Assembly: GCA_003327425.1 (NCBI GenBank)
Contig: QOQW01000005.1
Span: 1-64,000 of the forward strand
Length of the DNA: 64,000 bases
Direction of reading: 5' to 3'
Origin: Candidatus Ozemibacter sibiricus
GTDB taxonomy: Bacteria; Muiribacteriota; Ozemobacteria; Ozemobacterales; Ozemobacteraceae
Under the pieces are notes generated by a model. The model saw nothing but the letters and a program-made list of their open reading frames with translations, did no database searches and was not told the DNA's origin. A program made the translations under genes and the position numbers. Below, piece by piece: positions 37,767 through 45,615 of the stretch. The stretch's first letter is position 1, and each line of letters starts with the position of its first letter.

Positions 37767-39803
37767 ATGGCCGTCAGAACGCCTCGGCCGAGGCGGCGCC
37801 GAACCGCCCACACCCGCAGCGCGACCGGCGGTTCCGGGCCCGGTGGATCGCCGCTCCTGGTGCGGCTGCACGAGTGGTTCGCCGCCTGGATGACCCGACT
37901 GACCGGCCGCCCCTGTCGGGGAACCCCGCGGGAGGTGCTGCGCGACCTGGGTGGGCCGGTCGATCGGTACCCCTGGCTGGCTGGGGTGGAAGATTCCCTT
38001 TACCCCGTCAAATTGTCGCCAGGTCCGCAAACCGGCGGGTGTTCGACCTCGCTAGCCGTCGCGGGCCAAGAATCCGCTGGGGCTGGCGCGGAATCGGCGG
38101 CCGGCCCTGATCCGCTCGCGCTTCCGGATCTGGAGCGGCGGGGCCGAGGGGCGCGGCGGGCGCGCGGACAGTTCTATACCCCCGAAGATCTCGTGCGGCG
38201 GGTGTTGCGCCTGACGGGGCTGCCGCCGGCTGAAGGCGAGGTGCTCGATCCGGCCTGCGGCGACGGGGCCTGGCTGGTGCCGGTGGCGGAAGCGTGGCGC
38301 GAAGCGGGGGTCGCCAGGCCCCTCGAGCGGATCTGGGGGTGCGATCTCGATGCCGAGGCCTTGCTGATCTGCCTGGCCCGGTTGCTGGCGGTGGCGCCGG
38401 CGGGCGGATGGCCCCACCTCGAACAGCGGGACTTCCTGCTCGATCCTCCTTCACTGGTAGTCCCGGGAGCCGATTTTGAGGCTCTCGCGGCAGAATCGAC
38501 AGGCGTCGGCCGGAGGCGTGGAGGTGGGGGCGCGGAGGCCGAGCGATGCCAGAAGGCGGGCAGAGCAGGGAAGGGGGGGCGGCACGAATCAACGGGAGGT
38601 GGTGGGGCTGCCGACACCTCGAACGATCCTGACATGGGTCGCTTTGGCGGGTTCGCCGCGGTGATCGGCAATCCGCCCTATCGGGTCAATCTCGATCCGA
38701 CCCTGCGCGCGGCTTTGTCAGCTCGGTTCTCGACGGCCGAAGGGGAAAAAGACCTCTATACCTTCTTCCTCGAGGGGGGAGTGCGGGCGTTGCGTCCGGG
38801 GGGAACCCTGGTGATGCTGACCTCGCACACCTACCTGGTCAACCACCAATGCGCGAAGATCCGGGAATTCCTGTTCCGACGGCACTCACCCCAGGACCTG
38901 TTTCTGCTGCCGGCCCGGTTCTTTCCCCAGGCGCCGGGGGTGCTGCCAGTCGTGCTGGCCGTTCGGGCGGGGGAAGCTCCCTCCTCGTCGATGCGGCTCC
39001 ATGGCCAGTATGACCCCGAACGTGGATGGGAATGGACCCGGCTGGTCGATCCGGCGACGCTCTGCCGACCTGAGGGCATTCGTCTGGCCCTGGTTCCGCC
39101 GGCCATGCGCGAGGTCTTCGCACGAATGGAGGCGGGAAATCCTTCGCTGGGCGAGGTCGCGCGGGTGGGCGTGGGCATTCAGGAATCGCTGGTGCGTGAA
39201 AAAGGGCGGGTCTCGAAATTCGTCCACCAGACTGCTCGCTCGTCAGAGGACGTTCCGGTGCTCCGCGGGCGGGAGGTGCAGCCGTTCAAGATCGTCTGGG
39301 AGGGCCTGTACCTGCGTTATGGACCGCATCTCAGCTATGCGGGCGATGCCGCGGTCTTCCAAGGGGAGAAGATCCTGTACCAGAACATCCGCCATGAGAG
39401 TCTGCCGGTGCGGTTGGTGGCCGCTCTCGACCGGCAGGGGTTCTTTCCGAAGAACTCGCTGTCGTACATCGCGCGGCCGGTGGTGCCATTCACTCTGGAG
39501 TACCTGGTCGGATTGCTGAATTCGACCTTGGTCAATGCCTGGTTCGCTGGCCACTTTTTCAGCTTTCACGTCACGGTCGGGCAGGTTCGACGGATTCCGA
39601 TTCCGATCGCTGATCGAGAACGACGGGCTCGCGTGGAGTCGGTGGCTCGGGAAATCGCCGGTACCCCAGGGGCTGGCGTGCCGGCGCCTGTTCAGGCGGC
39701 CCTCGACGAGGCGGTGGCCGCCTGTTACCTGGGGCCGGGACGGCATTCCGGTTTGCTCGACGAGGCGAAGAAACTGCTTGCACAGATCGCCGGAGTATGC
39801 TAA
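37767..39803 (+). CDS. N6-adenine DNA methyltransferase, Eco57I/TaqI-like
   Basis: A 678-residue enzyme expected to methylate adenine in DNA. RGQFYTPEDLVRRVL precedes SAM motif I, DPACGDG from Asp161, and the catalytic NPPY is at residues 302-305 in VIGNPPYRV. The C-terminal third (RGREVQPFKIVWEGLYLRYG; LLNSTLVNAWFAGHFFS; RRIPIPI) is like TaqI-type target-recognition regions. No nuclease motif is apparent, so it may be an orphan methyltransferase or an incomplete type IIG system. A glycine/arginine-rich insertion of about 50 residues lies between motif I and NPPY, and the first 130 residues are low-complexity. It starts 20 bases after the Wzz-like gene and may be co-transcribed. Confidence 0.85.
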   Translation: MAVRTPRPRRRRTAHTRSATGGSGPGGSPLLVRLHEWFAAWMTRLTGRPCRGTPREVLRDLGGPVDRYPWLAGVEDSLYPVKLSPGPQTGGCSTSLAVAGQESAGAGAESAAGPDPLALPDLERRGRGARRARGQFYTPEDLVRRVLRLTGLPPAEGEVLDPACGDGAWLVPVAEAWREAGVARPLERIWGCDLDAEALLICLARLLAVAPAGGWPHLEQRDFLLDPPSLVVPGADFEALAAESTGVGRRRGGGGAEAERCQKAGRAGKGGRHESTGGGGAADTSNDPDMGRFGGFAAVIGNPPYRVNLDPTLRAALSARFSTAEGEKDLYTFFLEGGVRALRPGGTLVMLTSHTYLVNHQCAKIREFLFRRHSPQDLFLLPARFFPQAPGVLPVVLAVRAGEAPSSSMRLHGQYDPERGWEWTRLVDPATLCRPEGIRLALVPPAMREVFARMEAGNPSLGEVARVGVGIQESLVREKGRVSKFVHQTARSSEDVPVLRGREVQPFKIVWEGLYLRYGPHLSYAGDAAVFQGEKILYQNIRHESLPVRLVAALDRQGFFPKNSLSYIARPVVPFTLEYLVGLLNSTLVNAWFAGHFFSFHVTVGQVRRIPIPIADRERRARVESVAREIAGTPGAGVPAPVQAALDEAVAACYLGPGRHSGLLDEAKKLLAQIAGVC

Positions 39804-39811
39804 ATCAAGGG

Positions 39812-39838
39812 TTAGCACTCTGCATGGTCGAGTGCTAA
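39812..39838 (+). promoter_or_regulatory. CIRCE element (HrcA operator)
   Basis: TTAGCACTC, nine spacer bases, GAGTGCTAA: a perfect match to the CIRCE consensus bound by the heat-shock repressor HrcA. It lies between the methyltransferase stop and the FmdB-like gene, 77 bases before that gene's ATG. TATGCT at 39796-39801 could be a -10 box placing the transcription start next to the operator, but the -35 is poor. CIRCE normally controls groESL or dnaK/hrcA; none is in this window. Confidence 0.9.
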
Positions 39839-39915: not shown

Positions 39916-40350
39916 ATGCCAACCTACAGCTACCTTTGCGACAAATGCGAGAAGAAGTTCGATGCGTTCCACTCGATGCACTGCACGGACCCTCAACTGT
40001 GTCCGACCTGCGGGCATCCCGGCCGCAAGCTGTTGTCGGCCAGCTCGATCATCTTCAAAGGATCGGGGTTCTACACCACCGATTATCGCGATTCAGGATA
40101 TGTCGAAGCGCAGAAGCGCGATAGCGGCGAGGCTGGGAGCGGGTCCAAGAGTTCCGGCGGAAACGGGAGCGAGACAGCGTCTTCGTCGTCTTCTTCGTCT
40201 TCCAGTTCCGGAGGCGGGGAGACCGGAGGGAAAACTTCCACCTCCGGGGCGGCGGAGTCTGCTCCGGCCAAGAGCCACTCGGCCAGGCCAACCAGTCCTC
40301 CGCCGTCGCGATCGGCCAGCCGCGGGGAATCCCTCGCGCGAGCCGCTTGA
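39916..40350 (+). CDS. FmdB-family zinc-ribbon protein with low-complexity tail
   Basis: A 144-residue protein beginning MPTYSYLCDKC, the hallmark of FmdB-type putative regulatory zinc ribbons. Four cysteines in two CxxC pairs (8/11 and 29/32) would bind zinc. KGSGFYTTDYR at about residues 48-58 is also family-typical. Residues 70-144 are a serine/glycine-rich tail with a run of ten serines, unlike short family members. ATG 39916 has AGGA at 39905-39908. A perfect CIRCE operator precedes it, so it is probably induced by heat or protein-folding stress through HrcA. Biochemical role unknown. Confidence 0.88.
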   Translation: MPTYSYLCDKCEKKFDAFHSMHCTDPQLCPTCGHPGRKLLSASSIIFKGSGFYTTDYRDSGYVEAQKRDSGEAGSGSKSSGGNGSETASSSSSSSSSSGGGETGGKTSTSGAAESAPAKSHSARPTSPPPSRSASRGESLARAA

Positions 40351-40450
40351 GGCTCTGGTTCTCCGCAGCACCAATAGACCGTAAGAACGGTTGGTTTTCG
40401 AGGATCGAGGATGCATTCCGCCGATCGGGGGTCTGCCAGAGAACGCGCCC

Positions 40451-42943
40451 ATGGCCGGAACGGGTGACCGCGGCGCGGCTGGATTGATCGAAACCGAACG
40501 TCGGCTTGCCCGTTCCTTCAGCCCCACGGTGTTCCTGGGGGCAACCGCAGGCGCGATCGGCCTGGCGGCCTTTCTGCTTTTCCTGGTCCAGCCCATGCTG
40601 GGCCGGATGCTCTTGCCGTTGGCGGGAGGATCGCCTTCGGTCTGGAACTGTTGTCTGCTGTTTGCGCAGACCGCTCTGCTGGTCGGGTATGCCTATGCCC
40701 ATGGCCTGACGGGGTATTGCCCCGTCTGGGCGCAGCCGGCGGTCCACCTCGGACTGGGATGGCTCGCCTGGTCGACGTTGCCGTTCGGCTTCGGGGGGCA
40801 TCGCGAGGGCTTGGACCAGATCGGCGCCATGCCCTTGTTCGGCATTCTGTGGTGCGAAGCCGGCCTGGCCTTCGCGTACGTGGCCGCTTCTGCCCCCCTG
40901 TTGCAGTGCTGGTTCGCCCGGACGACCCATCCGGCGGCTCGTGATCCGTATTTTCTGTATGCCGCCAGCAATGCTGGCAGTCTGCTCGGCTTGCTGGCCT
41001 ATCCGATACTGATGGAGCCCTCCCTCGATTTGACAGACCAGGCTCGGGTCTGGGCCTGGGGATGCGGGGGTTTGGTCCTGTGGGCGGCCGCCCTCGGGTT
41101 CTGGCACTGGCGTTGGCTCGATCCTGGAGCTGGCCTCTCAACCGAAGGTTCTGCCTCAAGTGAAGAGCCGGCCAACGAGATCAAAGCCGCCTGGATCGTG
41201 CTGCCTGCTCTTTCCACCGGCCTTGTCATGGGAGTCACCCAATATCTGACGACAGAGGTCCTGCCCATGCCGTTGTTGTGGGTGGTACCACTCGCTCTCT
41301 ACCTGATATCGTACATGGTGGCCTTCGCCTGGCCTGACCTGGCCGATGGACCACTGACCGGGGTGGCTTGGCGGTATGTGCTGCTGCCGGTTCTGGCAAC
41401 CCAGTGGCTGCCGATGTGCGATCTCCAATGGTGGGTGGTGGGGCTGCAGGTGGCCGGGTTTTTCCTGCTGGCCCTGCGGTGTCATGGGCGCTTGGCGCGG
41501 TTGCGCCCCCCTCCTGCGTGGTTGACGCGGTATTTTCTGGCGCTCGCGGTGGGAGGGGCGGCGGGTGGAATCGGCATGACGTTCTTGCCCATGCGGGTGT
41601 TTTCTTCGCTCGTAGACTACCCTCTTCTGGTGCTGTTGACGGGGTATGTGCTCGCCAACGGGCCGATGAACTATCTCGGCGCTGCCTCTGAGCCAGCGTG
41701 CGGTTCAAAAGCGGGAAGAAAGATCGCGTGGGCGGGTGGGGGGCCATCTTTTTCGGCGGGGCTGGGGTGGTTCGAATGGTGGGCTCCCCTGGGATTCGGG
41801 GGTTTGATCGGGATGGCGTGCGTGTTCCTGCGGGGGCTTGCGTTGCCAGCCTGGCTGGACGGTCTTCTGATCTGGTCAGGAGTACCCTTGTCTGAGATTC
41901 CCTGGACGACCATTCGAGCCTTTGTGGGAATGTGGAAAGGGGAATTGATGCTGGTGGGAATGGTGGTCATCATGAGTCTGGCCACCTGGATGAGTTGGCG
42001 ATATCTGGGAGAGCGGTGGGGTGTTCATGTGGCGGTGGGTATGTGTGTGGTGATCGCGCTCTTCGAGCCAAGCCGACAAGTTGCCCCCATTCTTCACCAA
42101 TCACGGAATTTCTTCGGGGCATTGGAAGTGAGAGTCTTTTCAGGACCGCTGCCGGGGTTGTATCTTACCCATTGCATCACCCAGCATGGAATGCAACCAT
42201 CCAACCCGAAGGAGCGACCGATTCCGCAGTTGTACTATCACCCGCTGGGGGCTCTCGGAGATGTTTTTTCCTCCCCTGCCTTGCCGGAGTCGAACCGGTC
42301 GATCGGCGTGGTCGGCCTCGGGGTCGGAGCGATGGCGGCGTACAGTTCGGGAGCCCGGGAGCTGGTTTTCTACGAAATCGATCCTGATGTCGTATTTCTG
42401 GCGCGCGATTCGGGGTTGTTCCATTATTTGCAGAATGCAAAGGCGCCAGTCCGAATCGAGCTGGGGGATGCCAGGTTGCGGCTGCGAGAAGCTCCGGATG
42501 CCAGTTTCGACCTGCTCGTGCTCGACGCCTTCCTGTCGGATACGGTGCCGGTCCATCTGCTGACCCTCGAGGCGATCGACCTCTATTTGCGAAAGCTGCG
42601 TCCGACCGGCGTGCTGGTCATTCATGCCTCGGCGAAGTACCTGTGGCTGACCCCGGTCTTGCGGGCTGCGGCGACCCGCCGGGGATTGGATTGCCTGCTG
42701 GGCATGAATCTGCCGGTGGCGCCCGGGCAGGTTCGCCCGCCAGGCTTGCGTGACGGTCTTTTCGTGGTTCTCGGGCGAACCCCGGCTATCAAGGAAGATC
42801 TCTGCCGACGCGCTGGGTTCCGCTGGAAGGTCGCTCGCCCCGGGCAACCGGAGGATCTGTGGACGGATGAACGGGCCCCGCTGTGGCCGTACTTCCGGTT
42901 CGGACGCATAACCGACGCGGCGAGCGAGGCATCGGGAACATGA
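40451..42943 (+). CDS. Membrane-fused spermidine synthase-like protein
   Basis: An 830-residue fusion. Residues 20-560 carry about a dozen hydrophobic segments beginning FLGATAGAIGLAAFLLFLVQ, then LLPLAGGSPSVWNCCLLFAQ, a pattern I associate with fused membrane/spermidine synthase proteins. The C-terminal 230 residues form a spermidine-synthase-like Rossmann domain with VVGLGVGAMAAY (first Gly at 622), YEIDPDV and LGDARLRL, then LLVLDAFLSDTVPVHLLT. The aspartate-bearing DAF motif is present, but substrate specificity is uncertain, and many such fusions are not proven polyamine enzymes. ATG 40451 is preferred over TTG 40391. The next gene overlaps by ATGA. Confidence 0.8.
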   Translation: MAGTGDRGAAGLIETERRLARSFSPTVFLGATAGAIGLAAFLLFLVQPMLGRMLLPLAGGSPSVWNCCLLFAQTALLVGYAYAHGLTGYCPVWAQPAVHLGLGWLAWSTLPFGFGGHREGLDQIGAMPLFGILWCEAGLAFAYVAASAPLLQCWFARTTHPAARDPYFLYAASNAGSLLGLLAYPILMEPSLDLTDQARVWAWGCGGLVLWAAALGFWHWRWLDPGAGLSTEGSASSEEPANEIKAAWIVLPALSTGLVMGVTQYLTTEVLPMPLLWVVPLALYLISYMVAFAWPDLADGPLTGVAWRYVLLPVLATQWLPMCDLQWWVVGLQVAGFFLLALRCHGRLARLRPPPAWLTRYFLALAVGGAAGGIGMTFLPMRVFSSLVDYPLLVLLTGYVLANGPMNYLGAASEPACGSKAGRKIAWAGGGPSFSAGLGWFEWWAPLGFGGLIGMACVFLRGLALPAWLDGLLIWSGVPLSEIPWTTIRAFVGMWKGELMLVGMVVIMSLATWMSWRYLGERWGVHVAVGMCVVIALFEPSRQVAPILHQSRNFFGALEVRVFSGPLPGLYLTHCITQHGMQPSNPKERPIPQLYYHPLGALGDVFSSPALPESNRSIGVVGLGVGAMAAYSSGARELVFYEIDPDVVFLARDSGLFHYLQNAKAPVRIELGDARLRLREAPDASFDLLVLDAFLSDTVPVHLLTLEAIDLYLRKLRPTGVLVIHASAKYLWLTPVLRAAATRRGLDCLLGMNLPVAPGQVRPPGLRDGLFVVLGRTPAIKEDLCRRAGFRWKVARPGQPEDLWTDERAPLWPYFRFGRITDAASEASGT

Positions 42944-45615
42944 GCGATCCTCTGGAAGCGGAGCTGGCGAAGCGGGACCCGGCGGCCCGGCGACGCGCCC
43001 TGTTCGAGGCCTTTTCCCGGCGTCGTCACGATCTGCTTCCTGCCCTGGAAGCGTTCGCCCGCGCCGAGAAAGACGAGGAACTGGCCATCCTGGCGGCGCA
43101 GGTGTGCCTGTCGTTGCGCCATTTTCCCCCTGACCCCGCGCTCGAAAAAGAGATCCGCGATCTGCTGAAGCCCCCGGCTGATGTCGGGCTGCTGACGCCC
43201 CGAATGTGGGAATACCTGGCCCTGGCCGCGCCCCGGGAATTGATGCAAGCCGCCTTGCGCCAGTGTCGCCGAGGTCTGCCGCCCGAAGGGGTGCGCTTCC
43301 TCGAGAAAGCGCTCGAGCACCCTGATCCGGAAGTCCGCCTGGCGGCCTGCCGGCCAGGGGCAGCGGTCGGAGAACCGGCCGCGCTGGCGCATGTGCTGAG
43401 CCGCGTGCTGGATCCCGATGCGCGGGTGGCGCGGGAAGCGTTCGCGGCGGTGCAGAAGCTGCCCCGGGCCGAGCTGGCCAGAGTCTGCGAACAGGCGGTA
43501 CGGGGCAAAGACCCCTGGGTGGCGGGCACGGTGGCCCGTTTTTTCTCGGTCCTGGCGTGCGAAGAGTTGCGGCCCGCCCTGCAGGTCGCCCGCGACCATC
43601 CCGATGTCGAGGTGTCAGGGCAGGCCAGGGCGGCGTTGGATCGTCTCGACAAGGCGCAGGAGCGTCGCCACCTGATGGCGTTGCCGGCCAAGAGCCCGCC
43701 CGCCGGCGAGAAGAAGCCGGCAGGGGGAGGACGAGGGGTGGTGTCAATACCTCGTCAGCCGCCGATCATGCCCAAGATCGTGCCGGTGCCGGCCGGGGGC
43801 ATCCCCGGGAAGCCGGCCGGCCCCGCAGCGGGGGCGCTGCCAGGTTCTTCCGGCGTGACGCCGGGGCCGAAGAGCCCGCCGGTTGGCGAGCCCGCCCCGC
43901 CCTCCGTGGCGTCGCCCGCCGATTTCGGCGGCCTGCCGTCGGTGGTGGGCGGCTCTGCCTCGCCTCCTCCGGCGGCCAAGAAAGAGCGGGTGATTTCGGT
44001 GCGGGACCGGGTCAAATCCGCGCCGTCCGGCGAAGCACCCGCCGCGCCGGTGGCCGCTGGCTCTCTCGGAGAGCAGTTGGTCGCGGCCGCCGGGCGGTCT
44101 TCTGCCGCGGTTGCCGCCGCGGGCGCTGGCCACGGCCCCGGTGCCGTCCCGGCCGGAGGAAAAGGACCGGGCGTTGAATCCACCCCTTCTGTGGCAACCG
44201 ATGCCCAGACCTTGCTGGCCGGCGAGATCAGCTTCACGGTGGAGGACGCTCCGCGCGGGCCGGTCGGAGCCAGTGCGGCCCCGCCCGGCGTTGGAGGCAT
44301 GGCCGGGGCGTCTCCTGGCGGGGCAGGCCTGCCACCTGCGCCGCCGGTCCCTGGCTCCGGCCAGGCCGGAGGCAGAGAGCGGCCAGAGGGGCCCGCCGCC
44401 CCCGCCGTGCCCACAGCCTCTCCCGCTCCGGCCGCGCCTTCTGCGGGGGTGGCTCCGCCTCCAGGAGTGAGCAAGGGCCCCGCGGGGTCTCCTTCGTCAG
44501 GCGTGTCGGCGGTCGCGCCATCCCTTTCTCCTGTCGCTCCGCCATCGCCGCCGTCCACCCAGGGACCTGCGGCGCCATCCCCCTCCAGCTCGGCTGCGGC
44601 GGCAACGCCGTCGGCGTCGGTGGCGGCCGCCGCCCCACCACGGGGCGCTCCTTCCGCGGTGCCATCACCCTTCGCGGCAGCAACCGTCTCGGGAGCCGTT
44701 GCTTCGGCCGGCATTTCTTCGCCCGCTCCGGGTATTCCCGCACCTTCTGGACCCACCACCCCCGCTGTCCCCGTTGCTCCGGGGGCCCCTGCTGTCCCTG
44801 CCGCCTCCGCTGCTCCTCCCGCTTCCAGCAACCCCGCGCCGGCTCCTGCGGCCGGTCACCTGTCCTTCGAGCCGCCTCCGATGGCCGAAGCGATCCTGGT
44901 GCGGTATCCGTCCTTCCTGACCGTGCCGTTCGCTGCGCTCCTCGAGCCCAACACGCCAGCCGGGCACCTCGCCAGCCTGCGCACGTTCATGGAAGGGCTG
45001 CTGGGCTTCTTGAACTTCACCTTCCTGCAGACCTATCTCTTCTATGGCACCCGCTCCCCGAAGGGCGACCAGGTGGTGATGGAATGCCTGAAGGGCCATC
45101 TGGTGGCGCCGACGGCGGTGCGGTCGCTCCATCATCTCGCGCTTCTGGTCAAGAACGTGCCCGGCACCGATGCCTTTTTCACCTTCGCCCTCTCGCGCAG
45201 CCTGGCCGAGTCGGGCGAGAACAACCCCCTCGTGGTGGTGAAGGAGCTGTGGGAATACCTGCAGAGCCCGGTCGAACCCCTTGAAGAGACGTTACCGACC
45301 GCGGTGGCCGCCTTGCCCGGCATTCTGGTGGCCTGCAAAGGAATGCTGCACCATCCGCTGGTGATGAAAAGCGCGCCGGGGGCGCGCGAAGCCTTCTTCG
45401 ATCTGTCGGGGCCGCGGCCCGGGCCCCTCAAGCCGGCCGATCGCCCCAGTCTCGATCTGCCGCCTGGCGAGATCATCCTGCTGTCGCGCGATCGGGGCGA
45501 GGCCCTCGGCCTGTTCCCCTACTTTACATTCAATGGGGAACGTATTACCTTTGCCATACCTGATGCCAAGCAGGTTGCCATCCTCTACGAACGCCTCGAA
45601 CTGAAGGACGCCTGA
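42940..45615 (+). CDS. HEAT-like repeat protein with long Pro/Ala linker
   Basis: No known function. Residues 1-235 are helical repeats of HEAT type (DPEVRLAACRPGAAV; DPDARVAREAFAAVQ; HPDVEVSGQARAALD). Residues about 240-645 are an extreme Pro/Ala/Gly/Ser linker, disordered in character, with one embedded motif AGEISFTVEDAPRG. Residues 648-891 form a folded domain with FLTVPFAALLEPNTPAGHL, FLNFTFLQTYLFYG, and a terminal FTFNGERITFAIPDAKQVAI. There is no signal peptide or membrane helix, so it is probably cytoplasmic. Start and stop overlap the neighbours (ATGA and TGATG), so it belongs to one transcript with the membrane-fused and the transglutaminase proteins. Confidence 0.65.
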   Translation: MSDPLEAELAKRDPAARRRALFEAFSRRRHDLLPALEAFARAEKDEELAILAAQVCLSLRHFPPDPALEKEIRDLLKPPADVGLLTPRMWEYLALAAPRELMQAALRQCRRGLPPEGVRFLEKALEHPDPEVRLAACRPGAAVGEPAALAHVLSRVLDPDARVAREAFAAVQKLPRAELARVCEQAVRGKDPWVAGTVARFFSVLACEELRPALQVARDHPDVEVSGQARAALDRLDKAQERRHLMALPAKSPPAGEKKPAGGGRGVVSIPRQPPIMPKIVPVPAGGIPGKPAGPAAGALPGSSGVTPGPKSPPVGEPAPPSVASPADFGGLPSVVGGSASPPPAAKKERVISVRDRVKSAPSGEAPAAPVAAGSLGEQLVAAAGRSSAAVAAAGAGHGPGAVPAGGKGPGVESTPSVATDAQTLLAGEISFTVEDAPRGPVGASAAPPGVGGMAGASPGGAGLPPAPPVPGSGQAGGRERPEGPAAPAVPTASPAPAAPSAGVAPPPGVSKGPAGSPSSGVSAVAPSLSPVAPPSPPSTQGPAAPSPSSSAAAATPSASVAAAAPPRGAPSAVPSPFAAATVSGAVASAGISSPAPGIPAPSGPTTPAVPVAPGAPAVPAASAAPPASSNPAPAPAAGHLSFEPPPMAEAILVRYPSFLTVPFAALLEPNTPAGHLASLRTFMEGLLGFLNFTFLQTYLFYGTRSPKGDQVVMECLKGHLVAPTAVRSLHHLALLVKNVPGTDAFFTFALSRSLAESGENNPLVVVKELWEYLQSPVEPLEETLPTAVAALPGILVACKGMLHHPLVMKSAPGAREAFFDLSGPRPGPLKPADRPSLDLPPGEIILLSRDRGEALGLFPYFTFNGERITFAIPDAKQVAILYERLELKDA

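Follow-up and report, generated by a model that had tools for sequence, protein, structure and literature searches.

The genes and elements considered here, all on the forward strand, lie within what we call the window, i.e. the whole 64,000-nucleotide stretch of DNA that was analysed, and are as follows.

37767..39803, + strand: Eco57I-type adenine DNA methylase gene (PF07669, PF12950, PF02384)
39778..39783, + strand: candidate -35 element, TTGCAC, inside the 3' end of the methylase gene (from comparison of orthologous upstream regions)
39798..39806, + strand: candidate extended -10 element, TGC-TAAATC, with a 17-nt spacer to the -35 element, 5 nt before CIRCE
39812..39838, + strand: CIRCE operator (HrcA-binding inverted repeat), exact 9-9-9 form (0 mismatches; orthologous sites in 11 other genomes)
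39916..40350, + strand: fmdB, encoding an FmdB-family zinc-ribbon protein of 144 aa, Ruc (Rv0991c)-like (TIGR02605, PF09723, invariant cysteines, tail composition)
40391..42943, + strand: fused MFS/spermidine-synthase-like gene (NF037959, E 2e-12)
42943..45615, + strand: HEAT-repeat protein gene (PF13646)

The sequence at 39812-39838 reads TTAGCACTC-TGCATGGTC-GAGTGCTAA and matches the CIRCE consensus TTAGCACTC-N9-GAGTGCTAA at 18/18 arm positions. It is the sole CIRCE match in the 64-kb window at up to 3 mismatches, the number expected by chance from dinucleotide shuffles being 0, and the start of fmdB lies 77 nt downstream. None of GroEL, GroES, HrcA, GrpE or DnaK is encoded within the window. 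At the same threshold (<=3 mismatches) the whole genome (5.68 Mb; 58 contigs, 97.9% complete) contains exactly two CIRCE elements, the second of which (C5:142765-142791) precedes groEL1-groES-groEL2-hrcA-grpE-dnaK; this is where hrcA itself is encoded (PF01628, E 6.6e-44). In that locus (L009 4766-12361) two groEL genes flank one groES, forming a single operon with hrcA-grpE-dnaK and one CIRCE. The earlier note had described an exact operator with an fmdB-like gene as the first one downstream and the chaperone genes and hrcA away from the site, and had proposed a genome-wide scan for CIRCE and hrcA; the description was accurate in each respect, and the scan located the repressor gene.

The methylase gene, which is of the Eco57I/TaqI type, ends 8 nt before CIRCE and occupies the same position in several relatives. 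It is absent from the corresponding loci of two genomes (G006 and G007), where CIRCE-fmdB persists, and it is outside the regulated unit. The spermidine-synthase-like gene that the earlier note placed after fmdB is indeed present but does not belong to the conserved unit, since no match to it was found in the relatives' loci compared, which are from other genera; in the window it is possibly co-transcribed with fmdB. The HEAT-repeat gene is found downstream of fmdB in five relatives (G002, G003, G006, G007 and G019). Because it is near fmdB in relatives and the spermidine-synthase-like gene is not, the HEAT-repeat gene is the likelier of the two as a possible second operon member, if there is one. 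Its product is Pro/Ala-rich over a long central stretch and conserved towards the C-terminus, and members of several genera in the family have the gene adjoining fmdB.

Conservation of the arrangement was assessed by scanning for CIRCE, fmdB and hrcA in 24 genomes of the order, all from one family, and in 40 genomes of the phylum (Riflebacteria), most of them metagenome-assembled. An fmdB orthologue is present in 18 family genomes and CIRCE stands directly upstream of it in 12/18, at a distance of 2-168 nt from the start codon; the pairing on which the earlier note had staked its proposal is thus retained among relatives. Across these 12 sites the information content per position is 1.92 bits in the arms, 0.49 in the spacer, 0.26 in the downstream 30 nt and 0.70 in the upstream 40 nt, so that the arms are near-invariant while the spacer and downstream flank vary, as expected for a protein-binding palindrome. 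Nearly all remaining CIRCE elements in the family precede groES or groEL. In other families of the phylum (f2, f3, f5, f6 and f8) CIRCE occurs only before groES-groEL or hrcA, and for this reason CIRCE-fmdB looks like a regulon extension particular to this family. Upstream of 72 FmdB loci from outside Riflebacteria, which are the closest sequence relatives and do not include mycobacteria, no site within 400 nt had fewer than 6 mismatches. The pairing is probably ancestral to the family, as it is found on deep branches of the GroEL tree (G005, G006/G007 and G000/G012). One genome, G006, carries a third exact CIRCE (C30:12182-12208; L033/L228), which follows closely on a good -10 sequence (TATAAT) and lies 25 nt ahead of a gene for a 78-aa DUF2188 protein (PF09954, E 5.1e-20) that is followed by a ResIII/DEAD-type helicase gene (519 aa); this locus is a possible further lineage-specific HrcA target.

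A candidate promoter ends immediately before the operator. As read from the alignment, the orthologues share the pattern TTGA(A/T)(C/G), a 17-nt spacer and TGN-TAN4, ending a few nt before CIRCE; the -35 counterparts in relatives are TTGAAC, TTGATC or TTGATG, and TGN-TAN4 stands at the extended -10 place in all 12 CIRCE-bearing orthologues. The window's own -35 and -10 elements are weak, and the former was missed by a consensus scan. In many genomes the promoter-like sequence extends over the final codons and the stop codon of the methylase gene. G006 and G007, which have no methylase gene, retain both this sequence and CIRCE, and genomes of genus g10 that lack both CIRCE and the methylase gene keep TTGAAG...TGTGATAA; its persistence there without the methylase argues for selection on the upstream sequence as a promoter and not as coding sequence. 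Since the -35/-10 pattern ends just before CIRCE, HrcA would cover the start site of fmdB transcription, which is predicted to fall within the operator. A start site inside CIRCE is the classical HrcA-repressible layout.

The six family genomes in which fmdB lacks CIRCE belong to genera g10 (G014-G017) and g9 (G010, G011), which are sisters in the GroEL tree (support 92/89). In G014 and G016, groES-groEL-groES-groEL-grpE-dnaK is intact with hrcA alone missing, the place that hrcA occupies in the window genome, between groEL and grpE, being empty, and no CIRCE is left in the genome. This hrcA-less g10 is a rumen/gut genus of Riflebacteria (loci L259, G016:C1:126500-141000, and L260, G014:C20). 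Within the family, true loss of hrcA was scored for these two genomes only: G013, G015, G017 and G009 were left out, as GroEL is missing too (the chaperone locus is unassembled in G015 and G017), as was G012, whose contig ends before hrcA. Elsewhere in the phylum, family f7 (4 genomes) is without hrcA and without CIRCE. In genus g9, hrcA and the CIRCE at the gro genes are both still present, yet fmdB has none. The simplest history suggested by these distributions is that the fmdB operator was lost in the ancestor of g9 and g10, followed by the disappearance from g10 of hrcA and the gro operator. The operator at fmdB may therefore have gone before hrcA did and, because g9 and g10 are sisters, the two losses are not cleanly independent evidence. 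A Fisher test over the 18 genomes gave p = 0.005, a value to which we attach little weight as all four g10 genomes enter it as hrcA-less (two are proven) and relatedness is ignored.

The genome has five Zn_ribbon_8 genes, among them the one behind this operator; the closest FmdB sequences in public genomes come from Candidatus Riflebacteria (Candidatus Ozemobacter and rumen MAGs among them), which speaks against a planctomycete origin. The product of this fmdB matches TIGR02605 (E 5.7e-16; 58.3 bits against a curated cut-off of 31.3) and PF09723 (E 7e-11; 42.4 bits against 34.4). The protein consists of a zinc ribbon with Cys8, 11, 29 and 32, all four invariant in the Riflebacteria FmdB alignment, then GSGFYxTDYRDSGY, part of a conserved stretch GSGFYxTDYRDSGYLEAKKKD, and then a Ser/Gly/Ala-rich tail, with residues 70-144 comprising 35% Ser, 17% Gly and 1 hydrophobic residue in 75. 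In an AlphaFold2 model, residues 1-40 are confident and pLDDT beyond residue 40 is mostly 44-60, so that this part of the protein is predicted to be disordered.

The earlier note regarded FmdB as a family without clear function, a view which is out of date. In Mycobacterium tuberculosis, HrcA acts as a direct repressor of Rv0991c (Ruc), a chaperone that is activated by oxidation (Becker et al., 2020; PMC7448276). Strong induction of Ruc at 45 °C and its derepression on mutation of hrcA are reported there, as are the binding of a single zinc via cysteines, a disordered C-terminus and, for the oxidised protein, prevention of aggregation (PMC7448276). The cysteines targeted by mutation in that study were 8, 11, 29 and 32, and its neighbourhood analysis placed ruc genes within dnaK/hrcA/groEL clusters of PVC, FCB and Chloroflexi (PMC7448276). 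We rebuilt the Ruc N-terminal sequence from the primers printed in that report, giving a fragment that reaches residue 49 with three residues missing. The fragment matches PF09723, as does the window FmdB, and the two are identical at 22/51 aligned positions; when four FmdB proteins from the same genome were compared with it, the one preceded by CIRCE scored highest (97 vs at most 77). A search of open-licence papers returned none linking CIRCE or HrcA to FmdB under that name, the link being known under Rv0991c.

Our reading, to which we assign a probability of roughly 0.78, is that HrcA represses fmdB along with the gro-dnaK operon and that FmdB is most likely a Ruc-like redox holdase. The second part of this reading is suggested by the predicted HrcA control, the matching cysteines, the disordered tail and the top Ruc score among the four FmdB proteins. 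HrcA produced from the gro-dnaK operon would bind the fmdB CIRCE and block a promoter whose start site lies inside the operator, so that fmdB is little expressed in the absence of stress. Once GroEL/ES is engaged with unfolded proteins, HrcA would become inactive and fmdB would be induced together with groEL-groES-groEL-hrcA-grpE-dnaK; oxidation of the four FmdB cysteines, with release of zinc, would then allow FmdB to hold unfolded proteins and pass them to DnaK. The two predictions of the earlier note, that the HrcA regulon extends to fmdB and that FmdB has a stress or proteostasis role, are favoured respectively by the exact operator, the presence of hrcA and the pairing conserved in 12 genomes, and by analogy with Ruc. 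The joint absence of hrcA and CIRCE in G014, G016 and family f7 also speaks for HrcA control, whereas genus g9, with hrcA but no CIRCE at fmdB, and the weak -35/-10 of the window count against it. The window genome has no Hsp33 (13 of the 40 Riflebacteria have it), and we considered whether fmdB replaces it; this idea was rejected, as several CIRCE-fmdB genomes also carry Hsp33 and there is no clean exclusion.

The most serious alternative accepts HrcA control of fmdB but takes its product to be a zinc-ribbon regulator or adaptor needed under heat stress and not a chaperone. Zinc ribbons are found in proteins of many functions, FmdB was originally named as a putative regulator ('regulatory protein FmdB'), and a pure holdase model leaves the conserved GSGFYxTDYRDSGYLEAKKKD stretch unexplained. 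However, the one biochemically studied member that we found, Ruc, is a chaperone in the HrcA regulon (PMC7448276), and both the cysteine spacing and the disordered tail match it, so that we consider a regulator unlikely.

Two further alternatives concern the inverted repeat itself. It might act as an RNA hairpin, in stability or attenuation of the fmdB leader mRNA or at the end of the methylase transcript, and the transcript could indeed form an 8-9 bp stem there; but folding of the leader is not unusual (z = -1.0), no T-run follows the repeat, the arms keep the exact CIRCE sequence with no compensatory changes, and the element is gone where hrcA is absent, which together make a hairpin very improbable. 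That CIRCE lies beside fmdB through chance or a mis-join in the 58-contig assembly is refuted by the conservation of the pair, which recurs in 11 further genomes from several genera, each assembled independently, and by the chance expectation of 0.

HrcA control of fmdB in Riflebacteria would constitute a second, phylogenetically remote case of the chaperonin repressor controlling an FmdB/Ruc-type protein, so that the link described in M. tuberculosis would not be peculiar to mycobacteria, and the case grows for placing a very common 'unknown' zinc-ribbon family within protein quality control. We propose, tentatively and at somewhat below even odds, that Riflebacteria and Actinobacteria each brought this chaperone under HrcA control independently. 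If this is true, the GroEL/DnaK heat-shock regulon has repeatedly had a zinc-ribbon redox holdase as a partner, and the rumen genus that lacks hrcA is a natural constitutive mutant. Because hrcA and the operator have both been lost naturally inside one family, comparison offers a test of the link between HrcA and fmdB.

The system closest to the one proposed here is HrcA-ruc of M. tuberculosis, in which an FmdB/Zn_ribbon_8 gene is likewise under HrcA together with groES/groEL (here as a prediction); the two proteins are alike in Cys 8, 11, 29 and 32 and in a hydrophilic C-terminus that is disordered, by prediction in our case. The mycobacterial system differs in belonging to another phylum, in having an HrcA site that overlaps a SigH promoter and in removal of HrcA by the proteasome, whereas in the window genome the candidate promoter is sigma-70-like and the sole other predicted HrcA target is gro-hrcA-grpE-dnaK. 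The classical HrcA/CIRCE regulon, comprising groESL and hrcA-grpE-dnaK, as described for delta-proteobacteria (PMC545781), has the same operator consensus and, going by the predicted start site of fmdB, the same arrangement relative to the transcription start, but there groESL is the constant member and fmdB is not mentioned. Finally, the ruc clusters of PVC, FCB and Chloroflexi resemble the Riflebacteria case in tying the FmdB family to proteostasis genes; in those groups the tie is one of gene neighbourhood, whereas fmdB of Riflebacteria is unlinked from the chaperone genes and is tied to them by a shared operator.
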